Source: Streptacidiphilus sp. PB12-B1b (GTDB lineage Bacteria > Actinomycetota > Actinomycetes > Streptomycetales > Streptomycetaceae). From it: 64,000 nt of DNA. Each line of letters opens with the position of its first letter. The first letter of the stretch is position 1. The DNA lies in NCBI RefSeq assembly GCF_014084125.1, contig NZ_CP048405.1:1240001-1304000 (forward strand), read 5' to 3'. The notes below the pieces were generated by a model. The model was not told where the DNA came from and made no database searches. It was given only the letters and a program-made list of their open reading frames with translations. The translations under genes and the position numbers were made by a program. This document shows positions 54,285 to 57,475 of this stretch, piece after piece.

Positions 54285-54812
54285 ATGCGGGCCGTGGGCG
54301 GGCGGTCCAGCGGCCCCCGCCCCGCGCTGCTCGGGCGGCGGATGGCGGCCCGGTTGTTCGACATGGTGGTCGTGGCCGCCGTGGTCACCCCGATCGCCGT
54401 CCCGCTGGTCGCCTCCGTGCAGACCCACCTCCAGCAGAAGGTGGACCTCGCGCGGGATCTGGACGGCCGGAGCACGGTCTGGCTGGTGGATCCCACGGTG
54501 CTGGGGAGCGTCGGACTGCTGGTCGCGGCGGTGCTCGCGGTCGGCTTCGTGTACGAGGCGCTGCCGACCGCCGTCTGGGGGCGGACCCTGGGCAAGGCCA
54601 TCTGCGGCCTGCGGGTGCTGGACCTGCGCTCCAAGCAGAAGCCCGGCTTCGGCCGGGTGCTGGCCCGCTGGCTGTCCTACCAGTTGCTGGTACTGCTGCT
54701 GGTGGGCGCGGCCGACCTGCTGTGGTGCATGGTGGACCGGCCGTGGCGGCAGTGCTGGCACGACAAGCTGGGCCGGACCTTCGTCACCTCCGCCGCCGCA
54801 CAGCGGCGCTGA
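54285..54812 (+). CDS. RDD-family membrane domain (C-terminal part of the split gene)
   Basis: A 175-residue stretch in a different frame from the upstream Pro-rich coding region. It contains PALLGRRMAARLFDMVVVAAVVTPIAV (first helix with the R..D signature), a second helix (SVGLLVAAVLAVGFVYEALPT), RTLGKAICGLRVLD and QLLVLLLVGAADLLWCMVDRPWRQCWHDKLGRTFV, the RDD hallmarks with the D..R pairs. ATG 54285 has no ribosome-binding site, so independent initiation is doubtful. Upstream and downstream neighbours, including a second RDD gene, support a conserved membrane pair of unknown transport or stress function. Confidence 0.75.
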   Translation: MRAVGGRSSGPRPALLGRRMAARLFDMVVVAAVVTPIAVPLVASVQTHLQQKVDLARDLDGRSTVWLVDPTVLGSVGLLVAAVLAVGFVYEALPTAVWGRTLGKAICGLRVLDLRSKQKPGFGRVLARWLSYQLLVLLLVGAADLLWCMVDRPWRQCWHDKLGRTFVTSAAAQRR

Positions 54813-54896: not shown

Positions 54897-55529
54897 ATGA
54901 CGACACCTGAGCCGCCCGACGGGCCGACCCCGCCCTCGTTCGAGAAGCCCGCCCCGGGCGGTTCGTCGTACGGCCAGGCCCCGCCGCCGTACGGTCAGCC
55001 GCCGTCCGGCGGCCCCTACTACAACCCGGACCCGTACGGCACCAACCCGTACGGTCCCAGCACCGCCGGGCCCGGGCCGGTCGCCGAGATGCCGCCGCTG
55101 GGCGGGCTGGGGCACCGGCTGCTCGCGCGGATCATCGACACCGTGCTGCTCGCCGTCGTCGGGGTGCCGCTGACGCTGCTGCTGCTCACCGGCCACACCC
55201 ACAGCTCCGGCCGCGCGGCGGCGGCCGAGGTGACCCTCGTGCTGCTGGGCTTCGTCTACGAGGGGCTGATGCTGACCCTGTCGCACGGTCAGACGCTGGG
55301 CAAGAAGGCCATGCGGATCAGGGTGGCGGTGCTGGCCAACGGCTCCGCGCCGACCGGCAGCACCGGGTGGATCCGGTCCGCCGTGTACTGGCTGCCGGGC
55401 CTGCTGAGCTTCCTCTGCATCCCGGCGCTGTTCTCGCTGCTCAACATCCTGTGGTGCACCTGGGACCGCCCCTACCGCCAGTGCCTGCACGACAAGGCCG
55501 CCAAGACGGTCGTGGTGAAAGCAGTCTGA
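54897..55529 (+). CDS. RDD-family membrane protein
   Basis: A 210-residue protein: a Pro/Gly/Tyr-rich cytosolic N-terminus with PYG repeats (about 1-60), then an RDD domain: LGGLGHRLLARIIDTVLLAVVGVPLTLLLL (helix 1), VTLVLLGFVYEGLMLTLSHGQTLGKKAMRIRV (helix 2) and YWLPGLLSFLCIPALFSLLNILWCTWDRPYRQCLHDKAAKTVVVK (helix 3 and end). It parallels the split RDD gene just upstream and looks like its paralogue. Function of RDD proteins is mostly unknown; some act as ion antiporters. ATG 54897 overlaps the end of the upstream out-of-frame ORF (stop 54900). Confidence 0.9.
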   Translation: MTTPEPPDGPTPPSFEKPAPGGSSYGQAPPPYGQPPSGGPYYNPDPYGTNPYGPSTAGPGPVAEMPPLGGLGHRLLARIIDTVLLAVVGVPLTLLLLTGHTHSSGRAAAAEVTLVLLGFVYEGLMLTLSHGQTLGKKAMRIRVAVLANGSAPTGSTGWIRSAVYWLPGLLSFLCIPALFSLLNILWCTWDRPYRQCLHDKAAKTVVVKAV

Positions 55530-55546
55530 CCGACCGTCACCTCACG

Positions 55547-55590
55547 GGCCCGGGGCCGGCGTCCGGACTGTCCGGTGCCGGCCCCGGGCC
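55547..55590. terminator. Bidirectional terminator after the RDD gene
   Basis: Perfect 14-bp GC-only stem (55547-55560 with 55577-55590) with a 16-nt loop, between convergent genes. Confidence 0.8.
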
Positions 55591-55601
55591 TCGTGCCGCG
55601 G

Positions 55602-55904
55602 CTATCGCCTGCTGCCCTCGTGCTCCGGGATCGACTCGTAGCCCGACGCCGCGGTGTGCCGCGCCTGCGCCGGACGGTTGCGGGCCACCAGCAGGCTGCT
55701 GCGGCGGCGGGCGGCGGTGTGCCCGCGCCGGTCGGGCGCGGTGATGGCCAGGGCGGCCGCGATCGTCCCCAGGGTGATCCCGAGAATCGCCATCAGCGCC
55801 GTGGTGAGCAGGCTGTGCGTGCCGGAGGCGGCCAGGAGCGCGACCGTGGCGATGACGACGGCGAGGGTGCCGTAGCAGATCTGAGCGGGGGTCAGGCGTG
55901 GCAT
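55602..55904 (-). CDS. Small two-helix membrane protein
   Basis: A 100-residue hypothetical protein. ATG at 55904 (MPRLTPAQICYGTLAVV) follows GAAGGACGG. Two membrane helices (about 10-28 and 32-53) connected by ASGTHSLLT are followed by a basic cytosolic tail (DRRGHTAARRRSSLLVARNRP). I do not recognise a family. It faces the long repeat-containing region before the phospholipase-like gene. Confidence 0.7.
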   Translation of the reverse strand: MPRLTPAQICYGTLAVVIATVALLAASGTHSLLTTALMAILGITLGTIAAALAITAPDRRGHTAARRRSSLLVARNRPAQARHTAASGYESIPEHEGSRR

Positions 55905-56120
55905 GGCTGTTCCGTCCTTCGCGGCGGGGGAGTCGGGACGTTCTCCTGCGGTGTACCCCTGGGCGGACCCGACGACCCCAGGGTAAGGACTCGGCTTGAG
56001 GGGCACACGGGGGCGCACGGACTCATCGAACAGGCGGACGGCCCGACTATGCCGCTGGCAGCTCCGCGTGCCGCCCCTGCCGCCCGATCGCCCCGCCCGT
56101 CCGCCATGCCGCTGCTGAAC

Positions 56121-56189
56121 GCGGGTAGACAGGTGGTCGTGCGCCGCTCATTGGTCGTCGGTTCCGGGCGGTCTACGCGCGTGGTCTCC
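56121..56189 (+). repeat. Repeat unit 1 upstream of PLD-like gene
   Basis: GGTAGACAGGTGGTCGTG, a 27-nt spacer, then CGGTCTACGCGCGTGGTC. The left and right blocks also contain GTAGAC and GTCTAC as an inverted pair. The GTGGT cores are 48 bp apart (56133, 56181). Confidence 0.65.
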
Positions 56190-56364
56190 TAGCGGCGCAC
56201 CGGCCCGGCCCCGATCGGCGTATGCCCCACTGTCACGGCGGGCACACATGATGTTCACCTTCGGCGCCCCGGGGCCGGGGCGGTTCCGGGGCGCCGCCGC
56301 TGCGGGCGTGGTCGCAGGCGTTCGCGCAGCCCGCGTCGGACGGTGCGTACCCGGTCGATCGTAC

Positions 56365-56433
56365 GCGCGTAGACAAGTGGTCATGACAAGTTAACCGAGC
56401 AGGTATTCCCACCGGTCTACGCGCGTGGTTCTC
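56365..56433 (+). repeat. Repeat unit 2 upstream of PLD-like gene
   Basis: CGTAGACAAGTGGTCATG, a 27-nt unrelated spacer, then CGGTCTACGCGCGTGGTT. The GTGGT cores are again 48 bp apart (56377, 56425); ACGCGCGTAGAC (56363-56374) and GTCTACGCGCGT (56415-56426) form a perfect 12-bp inverted repeat. Offset from unit 1 is 244 bp. Confidence 0.65.
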
Positions 56434-56491
56434 TGGATAGCGCATTGGTCCCGACGGGCTGATGATCCATCAAGTGTCTTGGGAGACACAC

Positions 56492-57475
56492 ATGTTGCGC
56501 ACATCTGTACGCCGTGCCGGGATAGCCATGGCCGCCTGCGCCGCTGCGTTCAGCACCGCCCTCCCCGCCCACGCCGCCAGCACCTACTCGGCATTCACTT
56601 TTGCTCTGGGCACGAGCGAGCCGACGATCTACTCCTTCATCAACTCCGCGACCTCCACGCTCGACATGACCATGTACGAGCTCAAGGACACCACCGCGGT
56701 CAACGACCTGATCGCCCGCGAGAAGGCCGGCGTCAAGGTCCGGGTCATCCTGGACCGCGAGGAGACCTCGACCAACTCCTCCGCCTACTCCGCCCTCAAG
56801 GCGGCCGGCGTGGGCGTCGTCTACTCCTCCTCGTCGTTCACCTACACCCACCAGAAGACGATCACCGTCAACGGCGACGAGTCGCTGATCCTGACCGGCA
56901 ACCTGACCTCCGAGTACTACCCGACCAGCCGCGACTACGGGGTCTTCGACAACGACCAGACCGACGTCGCCGCGATCGAGAAGGTCTTCGCCGCCGACTA
57001 CGCGCACACCTCGATCACCCCGAGCGACGGCGACAACCTGCTGTGGTCGCCGACCACCGCCCAGAGCCGGCTGCTGTCCGTGATCAACGGCGCGACCACC
57101 ACCCTGGACGTCGAGGAGGAGGAGTTCAGCGACACCGCCGTGGTCAACGCGATCGTCGCCGACGCGGAGCGCGGCGTCACCGTGCGCGTCGTGCTGGAGA
57201 CCCCCTCCGACTACTCCTCCGAGGTCAACAAGGTCGAGGACGCGGGCGGCACGGTCGTCGGCTACTCCTCCAGCACCGGCTTCTACATCCACGCCAAGGC
57301 GATCGTCGCCGACTACGGCCTGTCCACCCAGAACGTCGAGGCCGGGTCGATGAACATCACCAGCAACTCGCTCGGCAGCAACCGCGAGCTGGGCATCATC
57401 CTCAAGGACTCGGGCGTCGCCTCGGTCATCGAGACCGCCTTCAACAGCGACTACGCGGGCGGCGGCGCGGCCTAG
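56492..57475 (+). CDS. Secreted phospholipase D-like protein
   Basis: A 327-residue exported member of the PLD superfamily. Signal peptide MLRTSVRRAGIAMAACAAAFS with a likely AHA-A cleavage site near residue 29. Two HKD-type halves: the first is HQKTITVNGDES...TGN (about 122-140) with Asn where HxKx4D has Asp; the second, HAKAIVADYG...GSMN (about 265-286), is canonical. The fold also includes the repeated STLDMTMYELKD and TTLDVEEEEFSD strands. It may cleave phosphodiesters of lipids or nucleic acids. ATG 56492 follows GGGAG; it is preceded by an unusual paired-repeat region. Confidence 0.88.
   Translation: MLRTSVRRAGIAMAACAAAFSTALPAHAASTYSAFTFALGTSEPTIYSFINSATSTLDMTMYELKDTTAVNDLIAREKAGVKVRVILDREETSTNSSAYSALKAAGVGVVYSSSSFTYTHQKTITVNGDESLILTGNLTSEYYPTSRDYGVFDNDQTDVAAIEKVFAADYAHTSITPSDGDNLLWSPTTAQSRLLSVINGATTTLDVEEEEFSDTAVVNAIVADAERGVTVRVVLETPSDYSSEVNKVEDAGGTVVGYSSSTGFYIHAKAIVADYGLSTQNVEAGSMNITSNSLGSNRELGIILKDSGVASVIETAFNSDYAGGGAA

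Follow-up and report, generated by a model that had tools for sequence, protein, structure and literature searches.

A palindrome shared by the promoters of a PLD-like gene and of nucleoside genes in Streptomycetaceae: probable operators of a nucleic-acid scavenging regulon

The PLD-like gene and the repeat units upstream of it

The window, by which we mean the whole 64-kb stretch of a Streptacidiphilus genome that was analysed, contains a gene for a PLD-like protein (Table 1) preceded by two 60-bp units that lie 244 bp apart. Farther upstream are two adjacent RDD-family genes (54285-54812 and 54897-55529) and, near them, a minus-strand open frame (55602-56018) that looks membrane-like. Each unit is built from a block A (GTAGACrrGTGGTCrTG, at 56125-56141 and 56369-56385), identical between the units at 15/17 positions, and a block B (CGGTCTACGCGCGTGGT, at 56169-56185 and 56413-56429), identical at 17/17, with the GTGGT cores spaced by 48 bp in both units. 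The spacer at 56142-56167 agrees with its counterpart at just 9/26 positions and the outer flanks of the units at 7/30 and 8/32, all of which is about what chance would give at this base composition. An exact 17-mer repeat arose in 0/300 dinucleotide shuffles of positions 55531-56490. The repeated paired units reported in the first-pass annotation are therefore real, as is its observation that their spacers are unrelated.

Homologs of the PLD-like protein are present in 14/14 Streptacidiphilus genomes, and the window protein has a signal-like N terminus, as judged by eye from the sequence. Two HKD motifs together with the PLD fold of the predicted structure (pTM 0.80) place it in the PLD superfamily. 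The H and K of both motifs and the D of the second are invariant in 23 homologs, and an N replaces the D of the first motif in the window protein. Its closest folds are a phospholipase D, polyphosphate kinases and the PLD3 exonuclease, with Salmonella Nuc aligning over one domain; a nuclease is not singled out among these matches. Similarity to NucT lies below the curated cut-off, and similarity to Nuc is weak. The nuclease role is predicted because these weak similarities coincide with the company of the co-regulated genes described below, and on this basis the protein is likely to be a secreted nuclease of the regulon that we propose.

Table 1. Positions of the PLD-like gene and of the putative regulatory features in front of it
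Feature	Position	Strand	Remarks
Operator 1, degenerate GAACGCGGGTAG, distal pair	56117..56128	-	Matrix score 15.1, weakest of the four window sites
Operator 2, CTACGCGCGTGG, distal pair, centre 56 bp from operator 1	56173..56184	+	Exact-pattern and matrix matches
Operator 3, GTACGCGCGTAG, proximal pair	56361..56372	-	Same place upstream of L004, L006, L007, L011, L013 and L015
Promoter block GGTCATGACAAGTTAACCG between operators 3 and 4; possible PHO box	56379..56397	+	Conserved in the 16-region alignment
Operator 4, CTACGCGCGTGG, proximal pair, centre 56 bp from operator 3	56417..56428	+	Best conserved alignment block: TCTACGCGCGTGGT
Likely ribosome-binding site, GGGAGA	56481..56486	+	Sequence reading and conservation
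Gene for a secreted PLD-like protein, likely a nuclease	56492..57475	+	PLDc_2; weak NucT and Nuc similarity; PLD fold

A conserved palindrome within the units

A genome search for the motif pair in its literal form, the two-block pattern GTAGACNNGTGGTCNTG, returned only the two window units as matches in 7.67 Mb (reversed control, 0). Because the literal pattern is confined to these two sites, the motif was derived from homologs instead. Comparison of the regions upstream of PLD-like homologs indicates that the true conserved core is a 12-bp palindrome, CTACGCGCGTAG, within which ACGCGCGT is the conserved part. Each unit holds two copies of it, not all of them perfect, at a centre-to-centre distance of 56 bp. 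Block A forms the right half of an operator beginning 8 bp earlier, and block B contains CTACGCGCGTGG. A weight-matrix scan of the window gave four sites with scores of at least 15, which are operators 1-4, a result that is partly circular since the matrix was built in part from these sites. An alignment of 16 upstream regions has, besides the most conserved block at operator 4, a second block, TGG.CATG...A.TTAACCG, between the operators.

Two cores 56 or 57 bp apart occur in the window and in the six homologous regions listed for operator 3 in Table 1, out of 24 upstream regions compared (a set that excludes L025 and L028). Among the remaining regions, L018 has two cores 90 bp apart, 11/24 have one exact core and 5/24 have none. 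The distal pair is present as a pair in the window genome only, among the upstream regions compared, and L004 and L006 have one additional core, located 180 bp upstream of their pair. In named records, a site was found within 600 bp upstream at 21/30 PLD-homolog loci, a set that includes two distant Mesorhizobium matches and several loci from species already in the genus set; the reversed matrix found 0/30.

The first-pass annotation had suggested that the repeats bind a dimeric or looping regulator or are remnants of element ends. Classical looping is disfavoured because the 56-57 bp between centres make about 5.3-5.4 helical turns, a non-integral number, and the frequency of homologous upstream regions with one exact core or none likewise speaks against it. 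Element ends are not supported either: they would be expected to flank a mobile element or to shift position between relatives, whereas the copies sit at conserved promoter positions of host genes across Streptomycetaceae. It might still be argued that the units are nothing more than the product of an old tandem duplication, or the remains of mobile-element ends, with no regulatory function, since two similar units do lie 244 bp apart and the window genome alone has the distal pair as a pair. This account leaves unexplained why the blocks are conserved while spacer and flanks are at chance identity, and why the core recurs at promoter positions of homologs and of unrelated nucleoside genes, and we consider it very improbable. 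A recent segmental duplication as the sole explanation meets the same difficulty with spacer and flanks, and homologs in other species have the arrangement of the second unit. That the window has two units rather than one may nonetheless reflect an old duplication. The idea of binding sites for a dimeric regulator has fared better, in that the palindrome is conserved and common to functionally linked genes, and a dimer would be expected to bind it.

The block between the operators can also be read as two 11-nt direct repeats. Its match to a GTTCACC-type PHO box is 10/14, a fit reached by 10/100 shuffles, and the fit is better in three of five promoters of PLD paralogs, where it is reached by 0-3/100 shuffles. 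These paralog promoters (L016, L021, L022, L023 and L024) have GTTCAAC-type 11-nt repeats resembling a PHO box before a GCTACGCGCGTTGC site, and a TANNNT hexamer precedes that site in at least some of them. A PHO (PhoP) box inside the operator pair is possible but weak.

Taxonomic range and associated genes

The pattern TCTACGCGCGTAG has 27 matches in 14 Streptacidiphilus genomes compared with 1 in the reversed control, and the one-sided pattern TCTACGCGCGT has 151 compared with 30 in the same congeners. Beyond the genus, the palindrome is present in 182/182 Streptomycetaceae genomes of an order-level sample, at 2-6 copies each (control, 0-3), and in 3/15 of the genomes from other families. 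In a class-level sample the palindrome is present in 44/44 Streptomycetaceae and in 13/349 other genomes. The matches inspected outside the family (9/13 in the class sample and 3/3 in the order sample) fall within coding sequence, next to unrelated genes or where no called gene is adjacent, and they look like chance occurrences. No site was found within 300 bp before punA (0/10) or add (0/11) in genomes outside Streptomycetaceae.

Among the best matches listed, a nucleoside-related gene lies at most 1 kb downstream at 65/68 distinct loci with a perfect palindrome. These are punA at 28 loci, add at 23, a nucleoside ABC transporter ATPase gene at 12, and deoC and a 5'-nucleotidase gene at one each, the other 3/68 being off theme, so that within this set one palindromic operator precedes several genes of nucleoside uptake and catabolism, as expected of a nucleoside-catabolism regulon. 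The target enzymes of the window genome were confirmed by profile searches. In the clusters inspected, perfect and one-sided sites share a region with genes for nucleoside-binding lipoproteins, a transporter, cytidine deaminase and thymidine phosphorylase and with add, deoC and punA; in the window genome the same genes are scattered over several places. Outside the 68 loci, a perfect palindrome in G121 (L168:7242) lies about 340 bp before a gene for a long secreted-looking protein, directly behind another gene and with no nucleoside link seen.

One-sided sites extend the list toward secreted enzymes. Genes preceded by such sites in the window genome and in G002 or G003 encode an ExeM/NucH-like secreted nuclease, a HAD class-B acid phosphatase and a 2',3'-cyclic-nucleotide phosphodiesterase/nucleotidase, and further sites there precede a purine permease gene, a gene for a PnrA-like protein, a carbon-nitrogen hydrolase operon, a sugar-type ABC transporter, purS and purF. 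Three genomes of another, large Streptomycetaceae genus, which its share of the family suggests is most likely Streptomyces, yielded 60 stretches with 65 sites, 42 of them extragenic. The extragenic sites stand before genes for an orthologous nucleotidase and for ExeM/NucH-like and GmrSD_C-domain proteins in 3/3 of these genomes, and before those for an acid phosphatase, a second nucleotidase and an RNase Sa-like ribonuclease in 2/3. A recurrence of the motif before other secreted genes had been proposed as a check, and one-sided sites do recur before genes for secreted nucleases (ExeM/NucH-like, RNase Sa-like and GmrSD_C-domain), nucleotidases and an acid phosphatase. Several of the profile matches behind these assignments are strong yet below the curated cut-offs, partly because the ends of the stretches cut genes. 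The site reading covered G127 at its punA cluster, left out four single sites of G121 and one of G201, and dropped intragenic sites before grouping.

A lone one-sided site is weak evidence and may be a chance match, because control counts are high: the one-sided 10-mer has 133 matches in four genomes against 63 in the control, and with one mismatch allowed the window genome has 29 against 22, which is barely above. Some CTACGCGCGT sites are off theme and unexplained by scavenging, namely those before rpoB and the genes for an M23 peptidase and a DUF4429 protein in 3/3 genomes of the second genus and before an M4 protease gene in 2/3 (L423, L447, L467; L421, L444, L464; L417, L448, L462; L426, L440). 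Operator-like one-sided sites also occur before purS and purF in several congeners (L115:7918 and 1496; L125:9995 and 17549; L130:4663 and 13188; L177:5104). If these are operators, they would link purine synthesis to the same regulator.

The placement of the sites bears on what the bound protein might do. With gene starts from a simple caller, and thus approximate, the palindrome of the window genome ends 16 bp before the called start codon of add and 22 bp before that of punA. Sites this near a start codon leave too little room for a classical activator, whereas repressors typically bind there, and from their position we infer that the operator-bound protein represses. The same regulon might instead be governed by an activator, or the paired sites might serve activation at the PLD promoter, where operator 3 precedes the putative core promoter and a conserved block sits between the two sites. 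Sequence by itself does not reveal function, and it is chiefly the spacing at add and punA that makes activation seem unlikely to us. We give still less credence to the notion that the motif is a sigma-factor promoter element and not a regulator site. It would account for sites near start codons and for half sites such as GTAGACT that resemble -10 hexamers, but the palindromic core is conserved on both sides, both orientations occur, and -10-like TANNNT hexamers lie downstream of the palindrome at add and punA. The sites are moreover paired, with centres 13 bp apart at the acid phosphatase and ExeM-like genes of the window genome, 14 bp at nucleotidase genes (L131 and L415), 25 bp at a nucleotidase gene in L458, 42-43 bp at ExeM-like genes (L414 and L451) and 56-57 bp at the PLD-like gene. 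A repressor remains our preferred reading, and the pair geometry would fit dimers able to bind in pairs.

A proposed regulon, its candidate regulators and known systems

In our view the repeats probably serve as operators of a Streptomycetaceae-wide regulon for nucleic-acid scavenging, to which the PLD-like gene would belong. The motif, how well it is conserved, the genes it accompanies and the taxa that carry it are observed; a protein that binds it, repression by that protein, the effector and the cleavage of DNA or RNA by the PLD-like protein are predicted. According to this proposal, a dimeric DNA-binding protein, probably a repressor, would bind the palindrome and would most likely be released by nucleosides or their (deoxy)ribose-phosphate products. 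It would control the uptake and salvage of nucleosides through purine nucleoside phosphorylase (PNP), adenosine deaminase, DeoC and a nucleoside ABC transporter, and probably cytidine deaminase and thymidine phosphorylase as well, and would place secreted nucleases, nucleotidases and phosphatases under the same control as salvage. At the PLD-like gene, the core promoter would lie between two operators 56 bp apart, with the second, partly decayed pair 244 bp upstream. More tentatively, an undescribed master regulator specific to Streptomycetaceae might sense nucleosides and switch on secreted DNases, an RNase Sa-like ribonuclease, nucleotidases and phosphatases as well as uptake and salvage, possibly along with purine synthesis and, together with PhoP, phosphate recovery, in one programme for recycling the DNA and RNA of dying mycelium; we rate this larger scheme as an open possibility that falls somewhat short of probable.

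One candidate for the regulator is a DeoR-family gene whose distance to punA is 2.2-2.7 kb in five clusters and about 10 kb in G012. Its orthologs are 80-100% identical in 10/10 Streptomycetaceae genomes searched. The CTACG palindrome is absent from its own promoter at six loci, and autoregulation is common for such regulators, not obligatory. Another imperfect inverted repeat, ACGGTC..GTTACYGT, is conserved at the start of the gene (L122, L124, L165, L166, L169 and L179) and is perhaps its own operator. Orthologs of 58-70% identity with a nearly unchanged recognition helix occur in G254, G231 and G240, genomes that have no palindrome and no site before punA or add, so the operator does not follow this regulator. 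The evidence on the DeoR-family candidate points both ways.

The LacI family was surveyed because its operators are palindromes with a central CpG, a feature also present in CTACGC|GCGTAG and one that other families permit as well. A full operator was found before none of the LacI-family genes in G000 (19), G201 (20) and G094 (6). One LacI-family gene is conserved in all three genomes and has the half site GCGTAG 33-34 bp before its matched helix, which is possibly just a -10 hexamer; it too is a candidate with evidence both ways. BldM/WhiI motifs had been considered as the identity of the site and were dropped once the targets proved to be nucleoside genes.

The palindrome offers a sequence-defined handle on the control of DNA and RNA recycling in Streptomyces and its relatives, for example from lysed mycelium, and could serve as bait for finding the cognate regulator. 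Nucleic-acid recycling has been tied in the literature to development and to phosphate-limited antibiotic production, and the proposal predicts that the RNase Sa-like ribonuclease and other secreted enzymes are controlled together with nucleoside salvage.

The operator CTACGCGCGTAG had no description that we found in the open-access literature, the scope being its text as distinct from figure logos and subscription papers. SdrA of S. avermitilis, possibly an ortholog of the DeoR-family gene near punA by our assumption, is reportedly a DeoR-family developmental regulator, and to our knowledge it has no known operator; SCO4920 is presumably the punA neighbour. Open-access text on SdrA and SCO4920 contained no operator that we could find. 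An inferred network centred on SCO4920 carries no nucleoside terms in the accessible part of its source (PMC3224704). Another study reports that S. coelicolor has more of both adenosine deaminase SCO4901 and nucleases than S. lividans does (PMC7244524), an observation consistent with joint control, and a third reports less DeoC in an argR mutant (PMC3293853).

Among characterised systems, the PhoP regulon has PHO boxes made of 11-nt direct repeats, as described in PMC6784220 and PMC7244524. Such repeats may lie inside the PLD-like promoters here, but the palindrome CTACGCGCGTAG is no PHO box and the PHO-box score is weak. XdhR of Streptomyces coelicolor is a purine salvage regulator described for xdh and the actinorhodin genes (PMC6627660). 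It resembles the proposed regulator in controlling purine salvage within the same bacterial family, a likeness in role and lineage. PurR regulons cover purine salvage genes, as the present one does, and purS and purF would be included here through one-sided sites; the operators differ, and one-sided sites are weaker evidence. The CytR and DeoR regulons of Escherichia coli are similar in that one operator family precedes genes of nucleoside uptake and catabolism, among them nucleoside phosphorylases, cdd and deoC, but their operator is different, and the regulon proposed here seems to extend to secreted nucleases, nucleotidases and phosphatases.
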